A stretch of 49,359 bases of DNA, from assembly GCF_001887355.1 (NCBI RefSeq), contig NZ_MPIN01000008.1, forward strand, positions 2,575 through 51,933. The letters are read 5' to 3'. The position numbers and the translations under genes were made by a program. The notes under the pieces were generated by a model. That model saw nothing but the letters and a program-made list of their open reading frames with translations, made no database searches and was not told the origin of the DNA. Each line of letters starts with the position of its first letter. The first letter of the stretch is position 1. Below, piece after piece: positions 3,099 to 49,359 of this stretch. The DNA comes from Cystobacter ferrugineus. Its GTDB lineage: Bacteria; Myxococcota; Myxococcia; Myxococcales; Myxococcaceae.

Positions 3099-4661
<1,563 letters not shown>

Positions 4662-4757
4662 GCGGCTCGCCGGGGGGCCTCGTCACTCGGGGGCCCCCAC
4701 GACGCGCCGCGTCCCACCGGCTTGCGCGGCGACGGGTGAGCCGTTAGGGAGGGGCGC

Positions 4758-5360
4758 ATGGCCAACCCGCGTCCCTCCCTCGATGATGCCTCCCTGAACA
4801 TCCTCTTCAACGAAGCGCGCAGCCACAACGCGTGGCTCGACCGCCCGGTGGAGGACGCCGTCCTCGAGCGCCTCTACGAGCTCGCGCGCATGGGTCCCAC
4901 GGCGGCCAACGCGCAGCCCCTGCGCCTGGTCTTCGTCAAGAGCCAGGCCGCCAAGGAGAAGCTCAAGCCCGCGCTCTCCGCCGGCAACGTGGACAAGACG
5001 ATGAACGCGCCGGTGACGGCCATCGTCGCGTACGACACCGAGTTCTACGAGCAGATGCCCAAGCTGTTCCCCGCCCGGGACATGAAGCCCATGTTCCTGG
5101 GAATGCCGCCCGAGGCGCGTGAGAAGTCCGCCTACATGAACAGCAGCCTCCAGGGCGCCTACGTCATCCTCGCGGCCCGGGGCCTGGGCCTGGATTGCGG
5201 CCCCATGGCGGGCTTCGACAACGCCAAGGTGAACGCCGCGTTCTTCCCGGACGGCAAGTGGAAGAGCAACTTCCTGCTCAACCTGGGCTACGGCGACCCG
5301 GCCAGGCTCTTCCCGCGCAACCCCCGCCTCGACTTCGCTGACGCCTGCCGGATTGAATGA
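4758..5360 (+). CDS. Nitroreductase-family protein, RutE/malonic semialdehyde reductase type
   Basis: A 200-residue flavoprotein-type reductase, the usual length of the RutE/HadB branch. Typical blocks are the N-terminal [15 protein letters not shown], the FMN-binding [17 protein letters not shown], and the C-terminal [20 protein letters not shown] with [11 protein letters not shown]. These enzymes reduce small aldehydes or nitro compounds with NAD(P)H. A role in clearing malonic semialdehyde, a by-product of propionate metabolism, would fit its place between carboxylase subunit genes, but that is inference. GGGAGGGG precedes the ATG, and TAGGGA ends 7 nt before it. The gap to pccB holds complementary CGGCTC/GAGCCG arms near its two ends. 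Confidence 0.85.
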
Positions 5361-5489
5361 GGCCTCCCCGGCTTGCGAAAGCAGGCAGGCAGTCGAAGAC
5401 TATCTCCTGAAAATTCGAGGTGAATCCCCCTGGAAATTTTGGGGGGTCCGTTCGCGCTTCAAGGAGCGCACTCAATAAGGAGCCCCCGT

Positions 5490-6122
5490 TTGTCTCAACC
5501 CCGCCTGGTCCTCTTCCTCGCCGACATCGAAGGCAACCTCACCGCCCTGCGTCAGACGCTGTCCCGGGCGTGTGAGACCGCGCATGTCCCCCTGCCCGAC
5601 GTGCGCTGGGTGGAGGCCGCCACGCCCATGACCGATGCGGGCTGGCGCGTGGCCGAGGTGAAGCTGCAGCCCTCCGGCGGCAAGGCCGTTCCCGAGGACC
5701 ACCTGGACTCGCTGGTGCGCGCCGTGGCGCGCGACTTCCGCGACCAGGCGGTGGGCCTCTACACCGACAAGGCCGGCAGCTACGGCCGCGCCTCCCTGAG
5801 CGAGCCCGGCCGCCCGTCGCGCTCGCTCGAGGGCGAGTACATCGACGTGGTGCGTCAGACGGCACGGTGGCTCGGCGTGGAAGCGCCGGTGCTCGGCCGC
5901 CTGCTCGACGGGGGAGCGACCGCGCGCAACCTGCTCGCCGCGGCGGTGGACTTCGGCAACGAGGAGCCCCAGCAGGGCGCCGCCTCCCAGGGCAAGCCGA
6001 GCCGGCGCGGAGAGCAGCCCCCCGCGCCGCCTCCGGAGCCGGACGAGGATGACCGCTTCGTCGAGGCGAAGCTGGTCGAGGCCCGCCGGCTGATGGAGCA
6101 GTACCTCAGCCACCGCAAGTAG
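5490..6122 (+). CDS. Unknown 210-residue protein in the carboxylase cluster
   Basis: The start is a TTG at 5490 with AAGGAG 8 nt upstream; the frame is open further upstream but the sequence there (MGGPFALQGA) has no SD. The protein has a mixed alpha/beta N-terminal part (residues 1-150) beginning RLVLFLADIEGNLTALRQ, a charged Pro/Glu-rich linker, and a C-terminal helix (DDRFVEAKLVEARRLMEQYL). There is no signal peptide or membrane segment. I do not recognise the family. It sits between the reductase and biotin carboxylase genes, about 50 nt before the latter, and may be co-transcribed. Confidence 0.75.
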   Translation: MSQPRLVLFLADIEGNLTALRQTLSRACETAHVPLPDVRWVEAATPMTDAGWRVAEVKLQPSGGKAVPEDHLDSLVRAVARDFRDQAVGLYTDKAGSYGRASLSEPGRPSRSLEGEYIDVVRQTARWLGVEAPVLGRLLDGGATARNLLAAAVDFGNEEPQQGAASQGKPSRRGEQPPAPPPEPDEDDRFVEAKLVEARRLMEQYLSHRK

Positions 6123-6173
6123 GACGTGTCTCGAAAGGGCCGGCGCCGCTCCCGTGTGCTAAAGGGGGCGCCC

Positions 6174-7685
6174 ATGGCCAAGATTCGAAAAATCCTCGTC
6201 GCCAACCGCGGCGAGATCGCCGTCCGGGTGATGCGCACCTGCAAGGAGCTCGGCATCGCCACGGTGGCCGTCTACTCCGAGGCGGATCGCTCCGCCCTCC
6301 ACGTGCGCACCGCCGACCAGGCCTTCCTCGTGGGCCCGCCGCCCTCGCGCGAGAGCTACCTCGTGCAGGAGCGCATCCTCGAGGCCGCTCGCCAGTCCGG
6401 TGCGGACGCCATCCACCCCGGCTACGGCTTCCTCTCGGAGAACGCGTCCTTCGTGCGCGCGTGCGAGAAGGCCGGCATCACCTTCATCGGCCCGCCCGCC
6501 AGCGCCATGGACGCCATGGGCGAGAAGACGCGCGCCCGGCAGAACATGATCAAGGCGGGCGTGCCCGTGGTGCCCGGCAGCACCGAGCCCTTCGCCACCC
6601 ACGAGGAGGCGCGCGCCTACGCCGAGAAGATCGGCTTCCCCGTGATGCTCAAGGCCGCGGGCGGTGGCGGCGGCAAGGGCATGCGCCGCGTGGACCGGCT
6701 CGAGGACTTCGACTCCTCGTGGCGCGCCGCCAAGAGCGAGGCGCTCAACGCCTTCGGCAACGACGCCGTCTACATCGAGAAGTACCTGGAGAAGCCCCAC
6801 CACGTGGAGATCCAGGTGTTCGCCGATGCGCATGGCAACACCATCCACCTGAATGAGCGCGAGTGCTCGGCGCAGCGCCGCCACCAGAAGGTGGTGGAGG
6901 AGACGCCCAGCCCCATCCTCACGCCCGAGCTGCGCGCGAAGATGGGCGAGGTGGCGGTGAAGGCCGCCCAGGCGGTGGGCTACGTGGGCGCGGGCACGGT
7001 GGAGTTCCTCGTCGACGTGAACCGCGACTTCTACTTCCTGGAGATGAACACCCGGCTCCAGGTGGAGCACCCCGTGACGGAGTGGGTGACGGGGTTGGAT
7101 CTGGTGGCCTGGCAGATCAAGGTCGCCGAGGGCGAGAAGCTCCCGCTCACCCGGGCGCCCACGCCCAACGGCCACTCCATCGAGGTGCGCATCTACGCGG
7201 AGGACCCGGGGCGCAACTTCATGCCGAGCCCCGGCCGCATCACCGAGCTGCGCGTGCCCGGCGGGCCCTACCTGCGCGACGACTCGGGCGTGTACCCCGG
7301 CTACACCGTGCCCAACTTCTATGATCCCATGATCTCCAAGCTGTCCGTGTGGGCCCCCACGCGCGCCGAGGCGATCGAACGGGCGAAGCGGGCGCTGGAC
7401 GAGTACGTGGTCAAGGGCATCACCGCCAACGTGCGCTACCTGCACGCCATCCTCTCGCACCCCGAGTTCACCGGGGGCGACTACGACACGGGCTTCCTGC
7501 CGCGCCAGCACGAGGCGCTGCTGGGCAAGACGGAGGACCCGAAGCTCACCGAGGCGGCGCTGCTGGCCAGCGTGGTGTACGCCTACCAGCGCGACCAGAA
7601 GCGGGCGAAGAGCCTGCCCCAGACGCCCGCGCAGGGCGAGGTGGGCATCTCCGCGTGGCGGCGGGCGCTCCGCCACGGCCGCTAG
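6174..7685 (+). CDS. accC: Biotin carboxylase subunit of acyl-CoA/acetyl-CoA carboxylase
   Basis: Catalyses ATP- and bicarbonate-dependent carboxylation of the biotin carrier. The 503 residues match the family. They begin KIRKILVANRGEIAVRVMRT; the ATP-grasp Gly-rich loop is AAGGGGGKGMR, followed by EKYLEKPHHVEIQVFAD, NERECSAQRRHQKVVEE (ERxCSxQRR motif) and the active-site strand EMNTRLQVEHPVTEWVTG. The C-terminal cap domain is present (EVRIYAEDP to the end), but there is no fused biotinyl domain; that is supplied by the next gene, 30 nt downstream. The ATG at 6174 is chosen from the conserved N-terminus; TGCTAAAG ends 9 nt before it. Confidence 0.95.
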   Translation: MAKIRKILVANRGEIAVRVMRTCKELGIATVAVYSEADRSALHVRTADQAFLVGPPPSRESYLVQERILEAARQSGADAIHPGYGFLSENASFVRACEKAGITFIGPPASAMDAMGEKTRARQNMIKAGVPVVPGSTEPFATHEEARAYAEKIGFPVMLKAAGGGGGKGMRRVDRLEDFDSSWRAAKSEALNAFGNDAVYIEKYLEKPHHVEIQVFADAHGNTIHLNERECSAQRRHQKVVEETPSPILTPELRAKMGEVAVKAAQAVGYVGAGTVEFLVDVNRDFYFLEMNTRLQVEHPVTEWVTGLDLVAWQIKVAEGEKLPLTRAPTPNGHSIEVRIYAEDPGRNFMPSPGRITELRVPGGPYLRDDSGVYPGYTVPNFYDPMISKLSVWAPTRAEAIERAKRALDEYVVKGITANVRYLHAILSHPEFTGGDYDTGFLPRQHEALLGKTEDPKLTEAALLASVVYAYQRDQKRAKSLPQTPAQGEVGISAWRRALRHGR

Positions 7686-7715
7686 AACCGTCAACCCGGG
7701 ACACGACAACGAGCC

Positions 7716-8225
7716 ATGCGTTACTTCGCGAAGCTGCACGGACAGAAGGAAGCGGTGCCGGTGGACATCGAGCCCGCGGGAGACAACCGCTACAAGCTCA
7801 CGCACGCGGGGAAGAGCGTGGTGGTGGACGCCCTGGCGCTGGAGGGGGGCGCGCTGTCGCTGTTGATGGAGGGCCACTCGTACAACGTCGAGTTCGACGA
7901 GGCGGGCGACGAGGTGCGGGTGCTCGTGCGCGGGCAGTGGTCGCGCATCGACGTGGCGGACGAGCGGCGGCTGCGGCTGCGCCAGGGCACGGCGGGCTTC
8001 ACCGTGGAGGGCAAGCAGCTCATCGCCGCGCCCATGCCCGGCAAGGTGGTCAAGGTGCTGGTGAAGCTCGGCGACGAGGTGAAGGAGGGCCAGGGGCTGG
8101 TGGTCGTCGAGGCGATGAAGATGGAGAACGAGCTGAAGAGCCCCAAGGCGGGCAAGGTGGTGGAGCTGCCCGCCAAGGAAGGCACCGCGGTGGAGATCAA
8201 CGCGCGGCTCGTGGTGGTCGAGTAG
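7716..8225 (+). CDS. Biotin carboxyl carrier protein of acyl-CoA carboxylase
   Basis: A 169-residue carrier whose C-terminal biotinyl domain (residues 95-169) contains the biotinylation site EAMKMENEL (central Lys) with the usual flanking IAAPMPGKVVKVLV and EGTAVEINARLVVVE. The N-terminal 90 residues are a beta-rich region linking it to the partner subunits. It is longer than a bare biotinyl domain and resembles the detached C-terminal part of a propionyl-CoA carboxylase alpha chain rather than E. coli AccB. It follows accC by 30 nt and is very probably co-transcribed, completing a three-subunit carboxylase with pccB. Confidence 0.92.
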   Translation: MRYFAKLHGQKEAVPVDIEPAGDNRYKLTHAGKSVVVDALALEGGALSLLMEGHSYNVEFDEAGDEVRVLVRGQWSRIDVADERRLRLRQGTAGFTVEGKQLIAAPMPGKVVKVLVKLGDEVKEGQGLVVVEAMKMENELKSPKAGKVVELPAKEGTAVEINARLVVVE

Positions 8226-8267
8226 CAGGCGGACACGAGGACAACCCCGCGTCTCCCCGGAGGGGTG

Positions 8268-8783
8268 ATGGAAATGCTCTGCACGTTGCGCAGTCTGACG
8301 GAGAACCAGCGCCGGGCGCTGCTCGCGGCACCCGGCCAGCTCGAGGCCTTCCTCGATGACGAGGAGGACTTCGAGGACGCGGAGGGCGCGCGCTTCCTGG
8401 AGCTGGACATCGGGGAGACGTGGCACGGCCTGCAGTACCTGCTCACGCACACCGCGTGGGAGGGCCAGGCCCCGCTGGACTTCCTCGTGCGTGGCGGCGA
8501 GGACGTGGGCGACATCCCCTCGGACGAGGGCACCGCGCGCCTCTTCACCCCCGCGCAGGTGCAGGAGTTGTCGCGGGCCCTCCAGGCGCTCCCCGCGAGC
8601 ACGCTGCGCCAGCGCTACGAGCCGGCGCGCATGCAGCGCGAGGACATCTACCCGGGCTTCTGGGAGGAGCCTCCGCCGGATCTGGATCCCCAGGAGGAGC
8701 TGCTGTCCTACTTCGAGGAGCTGAAGAAGTTCGCGGCCAGCATGGCCCGGCGCGGCCACGCGCTGCTCGTGTTCATCGGCTGA
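8268..8783 (+). CDS. DUF1877 (YfbM-like) protein
   Basis: A 171-residue cytosolic protein of the YfbM/DUF1877 family. Recognisable blocks are LELDIGETWHGLQYLLT, ARLFTPAQVQELSRAL and EDIYPGFWEE, with a C-terminal helix and strand (YFEELKKFAASMARRGHALLVFI). The biochemical function of the family is unknown. GGAGGGG lies just upstream. ATG 8268, ATG 8274 and GTG 8265 are in frame; 8268 is a compromise between SD spacing and N-terminal length. It follows the biotin carrier by 42 nt and ends 3 nt from the convergent TSUP gene. Confidence 0.85.
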   Translation: MEMLCTLRSLTENQRRALLAAPGQLEAFLDDEEDFEDAEGARFLELDIGETWHGLQYLLTHTAWEGQAPLDFLVRGGEDVGDIPSDEGTARLFTPAQVQELSRALQALPASTLRQRYEPARMQREDIYPGFWEEPPPDLDPQEELLSYFEELKKFAASMARRGHALLVFIG

Positions 8784-10523: not shown

Positions 10524-13500
10524 ATGGCCGAGGGAGACGTCCGGCAGTACTTCGTGAGGAATGATCAGGGCGCCATCTGGGGCCCCCTGGAATTGGCCAC
10601 CATCGAGTTGCTCATCGACAACGGCGCCATCCAGGGTCGGCTCCAGGTGTCCGAGGACGGCATCCACTTCGCCCAGCCCGGACTCTTCCCGCATCTGCGC
10701 GAGGCCTTCCCTCGCGAGATGTGGGGCGACGTCATCACCCCGGGCCCCAACACGCCCGTTCCGAACAACCGCCCGCCCCCGCCCAACGCGCCCGGGCCCA
10801 TGCCATCCGCCGCCCCACCGCCTGGAAGCGCGGGCGTGCCCATGGCGGGACCCGGTATCCCCCGAGCTCCCGTGGCGGCACCCGGTGCCCCCGCCGCGGC
10901 TCCCGGTGCCCGGCCCATGGCGCCGCCTCCGGGCGCGCCTCGCCCAGGACCCGGCGCGGCTCCCCCACCCGCTCGTCCCGCCGCTCCTGGCGTCGCCCCT
11001 CACGGCGGTCCGGGAGTGCCCCCCGCGGCTGGGCCTCGACCCACGGTTCCGGGTGTGCCGACCGCCACGGCTCCTGGCGTCGCCCCCCACGGTGGCCCAG
11101 GTGTGCCTCCCGGCGCGGGGCCTCGGCCCACGGCTCCGGGTGTGCCGACCGCGGCTCCCGGAGTCGCTGGTCCCCGGCCCACCGCGCCCGGTGTGCCAAC
11201 CGCCACGGCTCCTGGCGTCGCCGGTCCTCGCCCCACTTCTCCGGGTGTGCCAACCGCCGGTGCTCCTGGCGCCGTCCCCCACGGTGGCCCGGGCGTGCCT
11301 CCCGGCGCGGGGCCTCGGCCCCCGGCTCCGGGTGTGCCGACCGCGGCGCCCGGAGCCGCTGGCCCCCGGCCTACGGCGCCCGGCGTACCGACCGCCGCCG
11401 CTCCTGGCGTCGCCCCCCACGGTGGCCCAGGCGTGCCGCCTGGCGCGGGGCCTCGGCCCACGGCTCCCGGTGTGCCGATCGCCACGGCTCCTGGCGTCGC
11501 CCCTCACGGTGCCCCGGGAGTACCGCCTGGCGCGGGGCCCCGGCCCACGGCTCCGGGTGTGCCGACCGCCACGGCTCCTGGCATTGCCGGTCCTCGCCCC
11601 ACTTCTCCTGGTGTGCCGACCGCCGCCGCGCCCGGCGTACCGACCGCCGGTGCTCCTGGCGTCGCTCCCCACGGCGGCCCGGGTGTGCCGCCCGGCGCGG
11701 GGCCCCGCCCCACGGCTCCTGGCGTCCCCACCGCCGCCGCTCCTGGCGTCGCCCCTCACGCGGGGCCCCGCCCCACGGCTCCTGGCGTCCCCACCGCCGC
11801 CGCTCCTGGCGTCGCCCCTCACGGTGGCCCGGGCGTGCCTCCCGGCGCGGGGCCTCGGCCCACGGCTCCTGGCGTCCCCACCGCCGCCGCTCCTGGCGTC
11901 GCTCCCCACGGCGGCCCGGGTGTGCCTCCCGGCGCGGGGCCTCGGCCCACGGCTCCTGGCGTCCCCACCGCCGCCCCCGGAGTCCCTGGGCCTCGGCCCA
12001 CGGCGCCTGGCGTGCAAACCACCACGGCTCCTGGCGTCGCCGGTCCTCGCCCCACTTCTCCGGGTGTGCCGACCGCCACGGCTCCTGGCGTCGCCCCCCA
12101 CGGTGGCCCAGGCGTGCCGCCTGGCGCGGGGCCTCGGCCCACGGCTCCGGGTGTGCCGACCGCCACGGCTCCTGGCGTCGCCGGTCCTCGCCCCACTTCT
12201 CCGGGTGTGCCGACCGCCACCGCGCCCGGCGTGCCGACCGCCGCCGCTCCTGGGGCGCCCCTGCCCACCGCGCCAGCTCCCGCGTCTCCCGAGACCACGG
12301 GCACACCCGCCTCGACATCCGACGAGTTCCCCACACGCGGTCAGCTCTCGGCCATCTCGGCCGTGCGCCTCTATGGCCTCATCGCCGCGGGCAATCACAC
12401 GGGTCAGCTCTCGCTCACCCTGGCCGATGGCACCCTCGGCATCCACTTCCGCAAGGGCAATCCCGAGCTCGTCGAGTCCTCGCATCCCGAGGACGCCCTG
12501 GGCTCCTGGCTCCTCCAGGCGAAGCTCGTCACCCCGGAGCAACTCCAGCAGGCCGAGTCCGCTCGAGAGCGTTTCGGCGGCGAGGTGCTCGCGGCCCTCT
12601 TCGGCCTGGGACTGCTCCAGCCCGCCTCCGCCTTCGCCCAGCTCGCCCAGCGCGCGCAGAACATCCTGCTCAAGGCCCTGCGCGCCGAGTCCGGTTCCTT
12701 CTCCTTCGAGGCCCGGGAGCTCCCCGCCGCCAAGGCGATGCCGCTGGGCAACAAGTGGGCCGTGCTCGGCGACCTCGTGCGCCGCATTCCCACCACCGAC
12801 CTGCGGCGCCTGTTGCAGCCCGTGCTCGCCCTGCCCGTGATGAAGTCCAACGGACGCGTGGGCCCCGGAGATCTGCGGCTCACCCCGCATGAGGTGCGCG
12901 TGCTCGCCTTCATCGACGGCGCGCGCTCGACGGCCCAGCTCATCCAGGATCTCCCCCAGGACGCCGACCACCTGCTGCGGCTCGTGTTCCTCCTCCGGGA
13001 ACTCGACGGCGTGTCCTTCGCCGCCGTGCGAACGGCCCCCTCTGCCCAGGCGACGCCCCAGCCAGCTCCGGCTTCCGCCGCCCCCCAGGGCCCCGCCACG
13101 CCCTCCATGAGTGGCATCCCGGCCGCCAAACCCGCCACGCCCTCCATGAGTGGCATCCCGGCCGCCAAACCCGCCACGCCCTCCATGAGTGGCATCCCGG
13201 CCGCCAAACCCGCCGCTCCCTCGGCCCCGGCGCCCGCTGCCGCCGCCAGGCCCGCTGCCGCCCCGGCTCCCACCGCGAAGCCCGCTGCTGCCCCGGCTCC
13301 CGGTGCCGCCGCCAGGCCCGCTGCGGCGCCCTCGGCTCCGGCTCCCGGCGCTGCCGCCGCCAAGCCCGCGGCGCCCTCGGCTCCGGCTCCCGGCGCTGCC
13401 GCCAAGCCCGCGGCGCCCCCGGCTCCCGCCCCCACCGCGGCGAAGCCAGCCGCTCCCTCGGCTCCGGCGCCTGCTCCCGCTGCCGAGCCCACGGCCAAAC

Positions 13501-45111: not shown

Positions 45112-46787
45112 GCCTCTTCGACACCCATCTGCTCAATCTCGTCGTCTACCTGCCGCTGCTCTTCGCGGCGCTCCTGTGCCTGCTGCCCGCGGGCGAGCGC
45201 GGACAGGTGCGCGCGATCACGCTCATCGGCATGCTGTTGGACCTGGCGCTCGGCGTCTGGGCCTACCTGCGCTTCGAGCCCGCCGGTCCCGAGTTCCAGC
45301 TCGAGCACCGCGTGCGGTGGCTGGAGCAACTGGGCGTGAGCTACCACGTCGGCGTGGACGGCCTGTCCATCAGCCTCGTGCTGCTCACCGTGTTCATGGG
45401 GCCGCTGGTGGTGCTGGCCTCGCGCACCGCCATCACCGAGCGCGTGAAGGAGTTCCACATCGCCCTGCTGCTCCTGCAGGTGGCGATGATGGGCGCGCTG
45501 GTGTCGCTGGACGTGCTGCTCTTCTACGTCTTCTGGGAGGCCATGCTCATCCCCATGTACCTGCTGGTGGGCGTGTGGGGAGGCGAGGATCGTCAGGCGG
45601 CGGCGGTGAAGTTCTTCCTCTACACGCTGGCGGGCTCGCTGCTGATGCTGGTGGCCATCGTCGCCCTGTACTTCATCAGCGGCACGGCCGGCACCCGCTC
45701 CTTCGACTACGCCGCGCTCTACAACAGCCTGGTGGAGGCCAACCGGCAGCTCGCCACGTGCGGCGAGGACTGTGGGCGGCTCACCGGCGTGGCGGGCGCG
45801 CTGTTGCGCTGGGGCCCCTGGATGTTCGCGGCCTTCGCGCTGGCGTTCGCCATCAAGGTGCCCATGTGGCCGCTGCACACCTGGCTGCCGGATGCCTACG
45901 TGCAGGCGCCCACCGGGGGCACCGTCCTCCTGTCCGCGGTCATGGCGAAGATCGGCGTCTATGGCTTCTGGCGCTACGCCATCCCCTTCTTCCCCGCGGC
46001 GATGCACCAGGTGCGGCCCGTGCTGGCGGCGCTCGCGGTGGTGGGCATCGTCTACGGCGCGCTCATGTGCCTCGCGCAGCGCGACATCAAGAAGCTCATC
46101 GCCTACTCGTCGGTGAGCCACCTGGGCTACTGCATGCTGGGCCTCGTGGCGCTCACCAGCGAGGGCGCCAGTGGAAGCGCCTACCAGATGCTCAACCACG
46201 GTGTGGCCACCGGCGCGCTCTTCCTCCTGTTCGGCCTGCTCCACGAGCGGCGGCAGACGCGCCTGATGTCCGACTACGGCGGCATCGCCAAGGTGGTGCC
46301 GGTCTACACGACGGCCTTCCTCATCATGACCTTCTCGTCCGTGGCGGTGCCGGGCACCAACAGCTTCGTGGGCGAGTTCCTCGTGCTGCTGGGGACCTTC
46401 AAGAGCAACCTGGGCGTGGGCTTCGGCGTCCTCGCCACGCTGGGCGTCATCCTGGGCGCGGCGTACATGCTGTGGATGGTGCAGAAGGTCTTCTTCGGGC
46501 CGCTCACCCACCGTGACAACCAGAACCTGACGGACCTCAACGCGCGCGAGCTCGTCACGGTGCTGCCCTTCGTGGTGCTCGTGGTCGTCATGGGCCTCAA
46601 GCCCCAGCCCTTCCTGGATCGCATCAACCCCGCCACCGAGCGCTTCGTCAGCCGCGCCAACCTGGGCGCGCCCGGCAGCCAGGTCCAGCCCGCCGACGTG
46701 CGCATCAACGTGATGGGCCTGCCCCCCTCCGGCGAGGCCGCCGCCCCTCATGCCCAGCCGGCGGGTCCGCTCGCCGACCGGCGTTAG
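45108..46787 (+). CDS. nuoM: NADH-quinone oxidoreductase subunit M
   Basis: Antiporter-like membrane subunit of complex I, 559 residues. Typical motifs are GVDGLSISLVLLTVFMGPL, FYVFWEAMLIPMYLLVGVWGG (conserved Glu), FAIKVPMWPLHTWLPDAYVQAP (conserved Lys) and AQRDIKKLIAYSSVSHLGYC. The start is GTG 45108, overlapping the nuoL stop by 4 nt (GTGA). The hydrophilic tail is Pro/Ala-rich. nuoN follows after 16 nt. Confidence 0.95.
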   Translation: MSLFDTHLLNLVVYLPLLFAALLCLLPAGERGQVRAITLIGMLLDLALGVWAYLRFEPAGPEFQLEHRVRWLEQLGVSYHVGVDGLSISLVLLTVFMGPLVVLASRTAITERVKEFHIALLLLQVAMMGALVSLDVLLFYVFWEAMLIPMYLLVGVWGGEDRQAAAVKFFLYTLAGSLLMLVAIVALYFISGTAGTRSFDYAALYNSLVEANRQLATCGEDCGRLTGVAGALLRWGPWMFAAFALAFAIKVPMWPLHTWLPDAYVQAPTGGTVLLSAVMAKIGVYGFWRYAIPFFPAAMHQVRPVLAALAVVGIVYGALMCLAQRDIKKLIAYSSVSHLGYCMLGLVALTSEGASGSAYQMLNHGVATGALFLLFGLLHERRQTRLMSDYGGIAKVVPVYTTAFLIMTFSSVAVPGTNSFVGEFLVLLGTFKSNLGVGFGVLATLGVILGAAYMLWMVQKVFFGPLTHRDNQNLTDLNARELVTVLPFVVLVVVMGLKPQPFLDRINPATERFVSRANLGAPGSQVQPADVRINVMGLPPSGEAAAPHAQPAGPLADRR

Positions 46788-46803: not shown

Positions 46804-48363
46804 ATGAACCTGCCCACCCTCACCTCGGCAGACTTCCTCCCCCTGATTCCCGCGTTCATCCTGGTGCTGGGCGCGTGCATCCTGCTGCTCTCGGAGGTGT
46901 TCCTCTCCGCGAGCTCCACCCGCGGCTACCAGGCGGTGCTGGCCAGCATCACGGCCGTCATCGCCGGCGGCGTGTCGTTGCAGCTCTTGTTCGAGCCCGC
47001 GCGCGAGGTGTTCCTCGGCTTCGGCGCGTTGGATCCCTTCTCCAGCTTCCTGACCTTCATCGTCTGTGTGTCGCTGGCGCTGGCCACGCTCACCTCGGCG
47101 GGCTTCCTGCGCCGCCGGGGCGCCGAGCGCGGTGAGTTCTACGCGCTCATGCTCTTCGCGGGCGCGGGCATGAGCCTGTTGGGCCTGTCCAACGAACTCA
47201 TCACCGTCTTCGTCAACATCGAGGTGCTGTCCATCTCCACGTACGCGCTCACGAGCTTCCTGCGCCGTGGCACGCGGCCGAGCGAGGCGGGCTTCAAGTA
47301 CTTCATCCTCGGCGCCTTCTCCTCGGCGGTGCTGCTCTACGGCGCGGCGCTCTTGTACGGCGCCACGGGCACCACGCTGCTGTCGAACATGGCGCAGCCG
47401 CTGCGCAACGCGATGGAGACCCACGCGGCGCTCGTCTACGCGGGCGCGGTGCTGGTGGCCGCGGGCTTCGCCTTCAAGGTGGCCGCGGTGCCCTTCCACA
47501 TGTGGACGCCGGACGTCTACGAGGGCGCGCCCACTCCCGTCACCGCGCTCATGAGCGCGGGCGTGAAGGCCGCCGCCTTCGTGGCGCTCGTGCGCGTGTT
47601 CGTCACCGTGGGCAGCGGCATCGACAGCAAGCTGCCCTTCGCCCTGTTCTCCACCCTGGCGTTGCTCACCATGGTGGGCGGCAACCTGCTCGCCATCCCG
47701 CAGCGCAACATCAAGCGCATGCTGGCCTACTCCTCCATCGCCCATGCCGGCTATCTGCTGCTGGGCGTGGCCGCCCTCTTCGTCGTGCAGCCCGGCCAGC
47801 AGTTCCAGTTGCTCGGGCCCACGTCGCTCACCGGCGCCAGTGTCGAGGCCGCGGCACGCGTCGATGCCCTGCGCAGCATCCTCTTCTACCTGCTCGCCTA
47901 CGCCGTCACCGCGATCGGCGCCTTCGCCATCGTCTCCCTGCTGGAGCGCCGCGAGGACGAGGAGCGGGGCACCGCGTGGGACCTGGAGCGCCTCAGCGGA
48001 CTGGCCCAGCGCCGGCCGGGTTGGGCCTTCGCGATGGCCGCCTTCATGCTGTCGCTCGCCGGCATTCCGCCCACCGTCGGCTTCCTCGGCAAGCTCCTGC
48101 TCTTCCGCGCCGCGGTGGACTCGGGCCTCGTCGGGCTCACCATCATCGCGGTGCTCTCCAGCGCCGCCGGCGCCTATTACTACCTGCGCGTGGTCGTCTA
48201 CATGTACATGCGCCCGGTTCCCGAAGGCGCCCACCCGCTGGAGCGGGCATGGATGACGGAGCTGGCGCTCGTCATCTCCACCGCCGCCGTGGTGCTGCTG
48301 GGCATCCTTCCCGGGCCCCTCACCGAGTGGATCGCCCAGGCTGGCAGCCTGCTCAACCGCTGA
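46804..48363 (+). CDS. nuoN: NADH-quinone oxidoreductase subunit N
   Basis: Third antiporter-like subunit of complex I, 519 residues with about 14 hydrophobic segments. Markers are VFVNIEVLSISTYALTSFLR (conserved Glu), FKVAAVPFHMWTPDVYEGAP, QRNIKRMLAYSSIAHAGYLL and LAGIPPTVGFLGKLLLF. ATG 46804 follows the nuoM stop; no strong SD is seen, so translational reinitiation is likely. It is the last gene of the operon and is followed by a terminator. Confidence 0.95.
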   Translation: MNLPTLTSADFLPLIPAFILVLGACILLLSEVFLSASSTRGYQAVLASITAVIAGGVSLQLLFEPAREVFLGFGALDPFSSFLTFIVCVSLALATLTSAGFLRRRGAERGEFYALMLFAGAGMSLLGLSNELITVFVNIEVLSISTYALTSFLRRGTRPSEAGFKYFILGAFSSAVLLYGAALLYGATGTTLLSNMAQPLRNAMETHAALVYAGAVLVAAGFAFKVAAVPFHMWTPDVYEGAPTPVTALMSAGVKAAAFVALVRVFVTVGSGIDSKLPFALFSTLALLTMVGGNLLAIPQRNIKRMLAYSSIAHAGYLLLGVAALFVVQPGQQFQLLGPTSLTGASVEAAARVDALRSILFYLLAYAVTAIGAFAIVSLLERREDEERGTAWDLERLSGLAQRRPGWAFAMAAFMLSLAGIPPTVGFLGKLLLFRAAVDSGLVGLTIIAVLSSAAGAYYYLRVVVYMYMRPVPEGAHPLERAWMTELALVISTAAVVLLGILPGPLTEWIAQAGSLLNR

Positions 48364-48664: not shown

Positions 48665-48708
48665 GAAAAAGAAGACGGCCCGGAGCCCTCAGAAAGGGCT
48701 ACCGGGCC
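48665..48708 (-). terminator. Terminator of sRNA copy 1
   Basis: On the minus strand GGCCCGG and AGCCCT pair with AGGGCT and CCGGGCC (48677-48708; one unpaired base and a 5-nt loop), followed by GTCTTCTTTTTC. This is a strong Rho-independent terminator only in the minus orientation. Confidence 0.85.
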
Positions 48709-48790
48709 GCGGGTTCTTCTCAGGAAGCCATCTGGAGGGCTGAAGGCGGTGGGGGGGAACCTCCTTCGACCAGCTCCGACATGCTCCGGG
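48665..48790 (-). ncRNA. pxr: Pxr-like sRNA, copy 1
   Basis: Predicted RNA of about 125 nt on the minus strand, from +1 near 48790 (12 nt after the -12 GC of a sigma-54 promoter) to the U-rich tail at 48676-48665. Its first strong stem-loop pairs GAAGG and GGU with ACC and CCUUC (48742-48767) around a loop containing seven consecutive cytosines. The 3' end is a perfect terminator hairpin. As I recall, Myxococcus Pxr, which blocks fruiting-body development while nutrients last, is a sigma-54-dependent RNA of this size with a seven-C loop, encoded beside a nuoN gene. Size, promoter class, loop and position all match; identity was not checked by alignment. Confidence 0.72.
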
Positions 48791-48800
48791 TCTATGCTTT

Positions 48801-48816
48801 AGCACTCCCCATGCCA
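48801..48816 (-). promoter_or_regulatory. Sigma-54 promoter, sRNA copy 1
   Basis: Minus strand TGGCATGGGGAGTGCT: the GG (-24) and GC (-12) are separated by exactly 10 nt, matching the TGGCAC-N5-TTGC layout. The -12 C is at 48802, giving +1 at about 48790. Such a promoter needs an NtrC-type activator. Confidence 0.75.
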
Positions 48817-48922
48817 CCCCTCTCCTCCACCTAAACCCCAAGGATTCCAGGCACTTGGCCTTCTGGGGGGAGACGCGGGAGTCGGGCCGCTTTCAGCTCT
48901 GCAATGCAGCCCTGCAATCGCC

Positions 48923-48936
48923 TTTCACATGTGAAA
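48923..48936. promoter_or_regulatory. Palindrome upstream of sRNA copy 1 (possible enhancer site)
   Basis: TTTCACATGTGAAA is a perfect 14-bp palindrome about 135-145 nt upstream of the predicted +1 of copy 1, a normal distance for a sigma-54 activator site. Next to it are CTGCAATGCAG and a second CTGCAAT (48899-48918). The whole block is unchanged in unit 2. Confidence 0.55.
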
Positions 48937-48989
48937 AGCCCCCAGCCCTTCTCTCCCGGGAGGCGGGGCTCGTCTGGCGCCCAGGGCCT

Positions 48990-49033
48990 GGAAAAGAAGA
49001 CAGCCCGGAGCCCTCAGAAAGGGCTACCGGGCC
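48990..49033 (-). terminator. Terminator of sRNA copy 2
   Basis: Same hairpin as in copy 1 except for one outer G-U pair, followed on the minus strand by GTCTTCTTTTCC; the T tract is slightly shorter than in copy 1. Confidence 0.8.
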
Positions 49034-49115
49034 GCGGGTTCTTCTCAGGAAGCCATCTGGAGGGCTGAAGGCGGTGGGGGGGAACCTCCTTCGACCAGCT
49101 CCGACGTGCTCCGAG
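48990..49115 (-). ncRNA. Pxr-like sRNA, copy 2
   Basis: Second predicted sRNA, offset by exactly 325 bp, from +1 near 49115 to the U-rich end near 48990. The seven-C loop and its stem are identical to copy 1. Of three differences in the transcribed region, two fall in the first ten nucleotides of the RNA and one changes the last terminator base pair from G-C to G-U. Its own sigma-54 promoter and upstream palindrome are intact, so it should be expressed. Confidence 0.7.
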
Positions 49116-49125
49116 TCTATGCTTT

Positions 49126-49141
49126 AGCACTCCCCATGCCA
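49126..49141 (-). promoter_or_regulatory. Sigma-54 promoter, sRNA copy 2
   Basis: TGGCATGGGGAGTGCT on the minus strand, identical to the copy 1 element, although the sequence just upstream of it has diverged between the units. Confidence 0.75.
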
Positions 49142-49247
49142 CTCCTTCCCTCCACCCAAAACCCAAGGATTCCAGGCACCTGGCTTTCTGGGGGGAGACG
49201 CGGGAGTCGAGCCGCTTTCAGCTCTGCAATGCAGCCCTGCAATCGCC

Positions 49248-49261
49248 TTTCACATGTGAAA
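49248..49261. promoter_or_regulatory. Palindrome upstream of sRNA copy 2
   Basis: Second copy of TTTCACATGTGAAA, with the same flanking CTGCAAT repeats, in the same position relative to the sRNA promoter of unit 2. Confidence 0.55.
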
Positions 49262-49314
49262 AGCCCCCAGCCCTTCTCTCCCGGGAGGCGGGGCTCGTCT
49301 GGCGCCCAGGGCCT

Positions 49315-49359
49315 GGAAAAGAAGACGGCCCGGAGCCCTCAGAAAGGGCTACCGGGCCG
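49315..49359 (-). ncRNA. 3' end of a third Pxr-like sRNA (cut by window edge)
   Basis: The first 39 bp of a third repeat unit (from 49321) match unit 1 exactly and hold the complete terminator hairpin of a minus-strand sRNA plus its U-rich tail. The rest of the gene and its promoter would lie beyond the window. Confidence 0.6.

Follow-up and report, generated by a model that had tools for sequence, protein, structure and literature searches.

The locus lies at the right-hand end of a 49,359 bp window (the whole stretch of DNA analysed, C8:2575-51933) in the Cystobacter ferrugineus draft genome, which comprises 12.05 Mb in 42 contigs. The gene order is nuoN, four tandem copies of a putative pxr small-RNA gene, pxrR and pxrK, with the following features:

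46804..48363, + strand: nuoN, flanking the array on its left, within an open frame that starts at 46750 (ORF L005:1325-2938); NCBIfam TIGR01770
48667..48991, - strand: array unit 1, the pxr copy farthest from pxrR; direct-repeat, tandem-repeat and genome search
48668..48790, - strand: pxr RNA of unit 1, predicted start 48790, with SL1 carrying the seven-C loop and a terminator hairpin; model R2 (59.6 bits, E 2.7e-11) and folds
48801..48816, - strand: sigma-54-type -24/-12 element of unit 1, TGGCATGGGGAGTGCT (begins 48816); sequence match to the known consensus
48891..48936, no strand assigned: three enhancer-like palindromes of unit 1 (14-mers from 48891, 48904 and 48923); motif scan
48992..49316, - strand: array unit 2; direct-repeat, tandem-repeat and genome search
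48993..49115, - strand: pxr RNA of unit 2, predicted start 49115; model R2 (57.5 bits, E 7.9e-11)
49126..49141, - strand: sigma-54-type element of unit 2, TGGCATGGGGAGTGCT (begins 49141); sequence match
49216..49261, no strand assigned: three enhancer-like palindromes of unit 2 (14-mers from 49216, 49229 and 49248); motif scan
49317..49359, - strand: third pxr copy, terminator end, cut by the window end; genome search
L005:3893-4015, 4216-4338, 4535-6166 and 5965-8463, all - strand, beyond the window: rest of the third copy, fourth copy, pxrR and pxrK; genome search, ORFs and RNA model

The repeat search returned a 325 bp tandem repeat of 2.1 copies with 96% matches, spanning 48667-49359 with the third copy beginning at 49317, in agreement with the first-pass annotation, which had described two units and the start of a third. 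That annotation spoke of three tandem paralogs; the assembly shows four, at C8:51241-51565, at 51566-51890, from 51891, and a fourth, pxrR-proximal copy matching at 52214-52387, where the genome search found 75% identity to the array unit over 173 bases. An additional match of model R1 (34 bits) lies on the opposite strand inside the array, besides the four full copies. The gene preceding the array had been named nuoN, and this is borne out by the NuoN family TIGR01770 (411 bits, cut-off 332.6). Beyond the window, pxrR encodes a protein with receiver, AAA+ and Fis-type domains, the make-up of a sigma-54 response regulator, and pxrK one with PAS/GAF histidine kinase domains; both lie on the same strand as the array. 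Elsewhere in the window dense tandem repeats with units of 18-192 bases are located at 10983-12250 and 13092-13495.

In published work Pxr blocks fruiting during growth under the control of pxrR, and tandem paralogs from Cystobacter differ in their effect in M. xanthus (PMC5568312, PMC5684412, PMC11928866 and PMC10217877). Published Pxr has two forms, Pxr-L and Pxr-S; it blocks development, and Pxr-S disappears on starvation. The proposal that the units are pxr had been made from promoter class, size, seven-C loop and adjacency to nuoN, all of which agree with published descriptions and with the M. xanthus record, where we found a sigma-54-type promoter, the length, the seven-C loop and the NADH dehydrogenase neighbour. 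Our sequence comparisons support this identification. The array lies between pxrR (nla19) and an NADH dehydrogenase gene, and the neighbours resemble the frames of the M. xanthus record L017: 76% identity for the regulator (558 residues), 58% for the kinase (906 residues; both measured on stop-to-stop frames) and 75% for nuoN (521 residues). A covariance-model search had been suggested as a check. Model R2, made from 11 single-copy pxr rows with no row from Cystobacter or Archangium, detected both window units; over the 111,363 bases searched it scored copies 1-4 at E 2.7e-11, 7.9e-11, 2.5e-11 and 5.5e-18. The E-values of R1-R3 are rough according to the search tool itself. At gathering score no Rfam family matched anywhere in the window, and a distant-mode search of a plasmid collection gave no match.

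The RNA of each window unit was expected on the minus strand, about 125 nt long, with a sigma-54 promoter, a stem-loop with seven cytosines and a perfect terminator. All but the last of these held: the models start at 48790 and 49115, the elements were found, and the C-loop and terminator hairpins fold as described. The seven-C sequence GGTTCCCCCCCACC begins at 48761 and 49086, and all four copies carry GGUUCCCCCCCACC for the first hairpin with its C-rich loop. For the third stem the copies carry CGGCCCGG and CCGGGCCG; copy 3 has an N there, and unit 2 has a G-U pair, so that the terminator is not perfect in both units. The terminator-stem segment probably corresponds to the published conserved 8-bp core of the third stem. 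In alignment A1, which holds 41 of the 45 distinct RNA rows (G034_4, G003_4, G007_4 and L011_1 omitted), compensated changes occur in 12 of the 31 consensus pairs. The seven-C loop is constant in 41/41 rows, which had been picked using the loop and the sigma-54 element; each pxr copy that a looser pattern detected still had seven C, but in G013 the loops of two copies have six and eight. Three hairpins form when the M. xanthus-type RNA and each of the four copies are folded at the published length of 108 nt. We did not use the published distinction between three-stem and two-stem forms as a discriminator, as copies of many kinds also gave three hairpins. The idea that the repeats are mere shared terminators was likewise abandoned, because conservation extends beyond the terminators to the palindromes, the promoter and SL1. 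The ancestral SL1 primer sequence given in PMC5568312 is present in G035, and the U-to-C change in SL1 described in the same source is visible in the M. xanthus record.

The M. xanthus locus resembles the present one in position, promoter type, C-loop hairpin, terminator stem and upstream palindrome pair. It contains a single pxr between nla19/pxrR and the NADH dehydrogenase gene, whereas four tandem copies are found here. In M. xanthus the interval from pxr to the NADH dehydrogenase gene contains pxrA (PMC11928866); no pxrA-like gene was seen in the 304 bases that separate the array from nuoN. The M. xanthus RNA matches the distal copies at 81/124 and the proximal copy at 92/124 positions. 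The alphaproteobacterial cuckoo/CcsR-type sRNAs, like the array here, are tandem homologues with C-rich hairpin loops; their known loop motif, promoter and clade set them apart from Pxr. The Qrr sRNAs of Vibrio are different RNAs encoded at dispersed loci, and their likeness is one of analogy with no claim of homology. It consists in several sigma-54-dependent sRNA copies served by one NtrC-type response regulator, a parallel also mentioned in PMC5568312.

As a tandem pxr array the locus is of a known kind: tandem pxr paralogs in Cystobacter are published (PMC5568312). The first-pass annotation overrated the novelty, since both the tandem paralogs and the question of their functional divergence are already in print in that source. 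C. minor and C. violaceus, as reported there, carry tandem pxr at the same locus, each copy with its own reported sigma-54 promoter, in three paralogs per strain; within C. minor these differ by 14-23%, and between the two species they correspond by position. Unlike in these species, there are four copies here, three of which are 97.6-98.4% identical in the RNA. The new observation is that the three pxrR-distal copies encode almost one RNA and the pxrR-proximal copy another, which matches that of distal unit 1 at 87/124 positions.

Promoter elements were called with the -24/-12 consensus of sigma-54. By sequence match, TGGCA-N8-TGC is present in 4/4 copies, 57 bases before the loop. Sigma-54 is also the published class of the pxr promoter (PMC5568312), and an enhancer region of pxr is mentioned in PMC5684412. 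Upstream of the sigma-54 elements we noticed a 14 bp palindrome, TTKCA-N4-TGMAA, scored as present when at least 8 of its 10 fixed bases matched. The whole window contains 14 palindromes, and all four close pairs are inside the two units. Since the motif was first noticed in the units of this genome, the other genomes serve as a test. The 55 pxr copies had been picked by a pattern including the sigma-54 element and seven C, a number equal to that of the model hits in the ten array loci L005, L060-L065 and L068-L070; G005b_1, which has no upstream, was left out of the palindrome counts. A palindrome pair 17-21 bp apart was found in 53/54 upstreams examined and in 0/5400 mononucleotide shuffles (11/11 proximal, 31/31 distal and 11/12 single-copy upstreams). 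The third palindrome, 12-14 bp further on, is present in 28/31 distal, 1/11 proximal and 0/12 single-copy upstreams. The pair also occurs upstream of pxr in the M. xanthus record. In genus g4, which stands outside the count of 54, two palindromes (about 23 bp apart) precede 3/8 copies and one precedes 5/8; the strict promoter pattern is absent from most of these eight copies. The palindrome may be the binding site of PxrR, and offers a concrete, testable candidate for it.

Model R1 matched 95/96 genomes of the family at E 0.001. When hits of 45 bits or more were counted as copies, 16 of the 95 genomes had two or more pxr copies and 79 had one. The four genomes of this genus have 4, 2, 5 and 5 copies, and all six genomes of genus g3 are multi-copy, with 4, 5, 4, 3 (one cut by a contig end), 5 and 4. 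Two copies each are present in 4/6 genomes of g4. G080 has 4 copies on three contigs and G051 has 2 on two contigs. The tandem pair of g4 (L071, L072, L073 and L083), position-matched in three genomes, is separate from the window array. A record titled Comamonas sp. KCTC 72670 (L011:1402-1523) holds a pxr nearly identical to that of Myxococcus; this record seems to be wrongly labelled or a mixture.

The assembly has a single N at about L005 3935, past the window end and within the terminator stem of copy 3, which is a sign of an ambiguous consensus. With one N in a draft assembly, a consensus problem and a miscount of copies are possible. The draft state of the genome, this N, and the variation of copy number and period among related genomes are what could be expected if the array were a neutral tandem repeat or an assembly artefact, its copy number accidental and with no function of its own. 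We consider this highly improbable, as the substitutions between copies are concentrated in the spacer while the other parts are kept, and as the single-contig genomes G002, G006, G007 and G033 hold 4, 5, 4 and 5 copies. The array is no chance product: related genomes, including four single-contig ones, have arrays composed in the same way, whose copies show point differences from one another.

The distribution of these substitutions was determined for eight distal copies from three genomes of this genus. In the spacer 40/75 columns vary, compared with 3/46 palindrome columns and 3/111 RNA columns from +15 on (Fisher p 5e-8 and 2e-16, respectively); 3 of the first 14 RNA columns vary. Of the 28 distal copies that have a sister copy in their genome, 23 have their nearest relative in that genome, compared with an average of 2.4 and a maximum of 12 in 2000 label shuffles, so that the position-matched pattern of C. 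minor and C. violaceus was not found here. The five that do not pair within their genome are G003_2, G004_4 and G007_2 to 4. The truncated G005b_1 and G005a_2 were dropped from this count and from the first tree. Identity over 289 bases was seen for two pairs of copies in G033 (2 with 4, 3 with 5) and for one pair in G006 (3 with 5), where copies 2 and 4 have the same RNA. This pattern looks like duplication of two-unit blocks. Over the 328 columns of the whole unit there are 0-40 differences within G033, 11-31 within this genome and 36-53 between the two; 11 differences are fixed, and 15 columns vary in both genomes. The overlap of the ranges and the 15 shared variable columns indicate that the units have not been homogenised throughout. 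Hence the RNA and the switch are alike, and much of the spacer is old. The likeness of the distal copies may come from gene conversion or from selection.

The descent of the proximal copy was addressed by two trees, which disagree. In the tree including 140 bases upstream the proximal copy groups as direct ortholog of single-copy pxr (97/84); in the tree of promoter and RNA all array copies of g1, g3 and g20 fall together (97/94). Direct orthology, backed by the first tree and not by the second, is possible.

The reading that in our view best explains the array, with a probability of roughly 0.6, is that the four genes would supply extra doses of Pxr, each copy being a complete gene switched by PxrR. 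PxrR, as an NtrC-type regulator, would bind at the TTKCA-N4-TGMAA palindromes, of which two or three lie about 90-120 bp upstream, and would make sigma-54 RNA polymerase start. The RNA would expose its hairpin with seven C in the loop, an element that inactivates Pxr in M. xanthus when altered, and would end in the terminator hairpin. The proximal copy would yield one version of the RNA and the three distal copies an almost identical second version, the distal genes being kept alike by unit duplication or conversion within the species and by purifying selection on palindromes, promoter and RNA. With each PxrR signal yielding more Pxr, the likely outcome would be a stronger or sharper developmental block while nutrients last. 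The sequences show the array, its orthology to pxr, the promoter-like and enhancer-like elements and the pattern of conservation, whereas PxrR binding, expression, the dosage effect and target repression through the C loop are inferred. Several points weigh against this reading: the incomplete homogenisation of the units, the five distal copies that do not pair within their genome, the use of promoter element and seven C in picking the copies, the g4 copies that mostly lack the strict promoter pattern, and the N in copy 3.

Two other readings concern the division between proximal and distal genes and the palindromes. The paralogs may be subfunctionalised, the proximal and distal RNAs having different targets or timing, so that the array would hold two regulators and not mainly serve dose. 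The divergence of the proximal RNA (87/124 positions, as given above) and the bias of the third palindrome toward distal copies would suit this, and so would the published alleles: of four from Cystobacter, two prevented development in M. xanthus and the other two failed to, with Pxr-S scarce or absent (PMC5568312). These allele differences were measured in a foreign host, however, the C-loop core is common to all four copies, and the three distal RNAs are nearly the same, so at least the distal copies look redundant. We regard subfunctionalisation as possible but rather doubtful. It is improbable that the array acts as a decoy, in which its palindromes, about eleven in number (two in the proximal and three in each distal copy), would mainly titrate PxrR, the extra copies dampening or delaying the output per gene. 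Such an effect is suggested for merodiploids in PMC5684412, according to which PxrR may be drawn away by the second promoter and enhancer region, leaving less Pxr-L; the additional palindrome of the distal copies would fit it as well. Pure decoys would need neither promoter nor RNA, which are conserved together with the palindromes, and PxrR binding is itself only a proposal.

Dosage through complete, PxrR-switched genes is thus the reading we prefer. Since a single genome holds three near-identical pxr genes and one divergent one, each with a switch of its own, it allows the dosage of a developmental sRNA to be separated from its specialisation. Specialists will find the near-identical distal class with palindromes of its own unexpected, and above all a one-hairpin relative at the pxr locus of presumed non-fruiting bacteria.

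In a scan of the phylum with R1, weak matches appeared in 10 genomes of family f3, at about 32 bits among the three listed, and these three sit between the orthologs of pxrR and nuoN. A DNA query matched 8/9 genomes of genus g31, and 10/24 genomes of its family. We take g31 to be Anaeromyxobacter, G131, G126 and G127 presumably being Anaeromyxobacter sp. Fw109-5, A. dehalogenans 2CP-1 and 2CP-C. Anaeromyxobacter is placed in the suborder Cystobacterineae (NCBI taxonomy) and, as stated in PMC8538405, forms no fruits. The feature is:

L080:1946-2028 (also in L081, L082 and L114-L118): one-hairpin RNA of g31, between pxrR and nuoN

In 8/8 genomes of g31 examined a sigma-54 element precedes the hairpin, GAAGnAGGUCCCCCCCCGCCACUUCAGC, by 50-52 bases, a palindrome pair is located upstream, nuoN lies on the far side and pxrR is matched (in L118 over only 136 residues). 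Locus, promoter type and C-loop hairpin are thus those of Pxr in all eight. The separate third stem, SL3, is absent: there is one hairpin, whose closing stem is followed by U's and would with them form the terminator. Since SL3 is lacking, this RNA is classed here not as Pxr itself but as a Pxr-related one-hairpin RNA. Between the RNA and nuoN, at about L080 2040-2400, a small frame resembles, by eye, a stand-alone receiver domain.

Ten one-hairpin rows from two genera, in which 5/25 pairs are compensated, were the only rows used to build model R3. At E 0.01 it matched 46/145 genomes of the order. In Myxococcaceae every one of its hits (21/21) coincides with a pxr that R1 had also detected, but these hits cover only 20/96 genomes; the copies of this genome were not detected in that search. 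In family f6 the one-hairpin RNA adjoins pxrR in three genomes, and in f8 and others it is located elsewhere. G154 of f6 has three tandem copies by pxrR (L101:2013-2097, 2300-2384 and 2560-2642), with palindromes only at the pxrR-proximal one. Weak R3 hits (28-40 bits) in f2, f5, g32 and g35 have sigma-54-type elements, mostly with palindromes, and no pxrR neighbour in the stretches looked at. In a sample of 195 genomes of the phylum, G188 is the only one outside the order among the R3 matches listed. We treat the hits in f2, f5, g32, g35 and G188 as leads only. The R3 hit L112, with neither promoter nor palindromes, was rejected as a one-hairpin relative.

We hold the odds to be even that Pxr predates fruiting, in which case an ancestral poly-C hairpin would later have acquired SL3, the tie to development and tandem amplification, the window array being kept for dosage. 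The ancestor would have been a single hairpin driven by sigma-54 and PxrR, with a poly-C loop, doubling as its own terminator. Its spread would have taken in the order Myxococcales, the non-fruiting Anaeromyxobacter among them, and it would have acted through the C loop in a nutrient or metabolic role. Myxococcaceae would later have gained the separate terminator stem and tied Pxr to development, and tandem amplification would have taken place in at least three lineages (the present one, genus g4 and family f6). A literature search for Pxr with Anaeromyxobacter found no report of such a relative; the 2014 pxr survey may have covered it. In bacteria taken as non-fruiting, the one-hairpin RNA reduces Pxr to the common part, the C-loop hairpin, and a search for targets is thereby pointed at G-rich sites of mRNAs. 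It also opens the question of what role Pxr had before, or has apart from, fruiting bodies.

Two observations concern single leads. In f2 the one-hairpin candidates of three genomes (L107, L109 and L110) lie beside a gene for a TPR-repeat protein, away from pxrR, possibly a second context. In the A-T-rich genome G188, one of 8 genomes of its order with a match, L113:1963-2051 combines a sigma-54-type element, two TTTCATATATGAAA-like palindromes and a hairpin with a loop of nine C.
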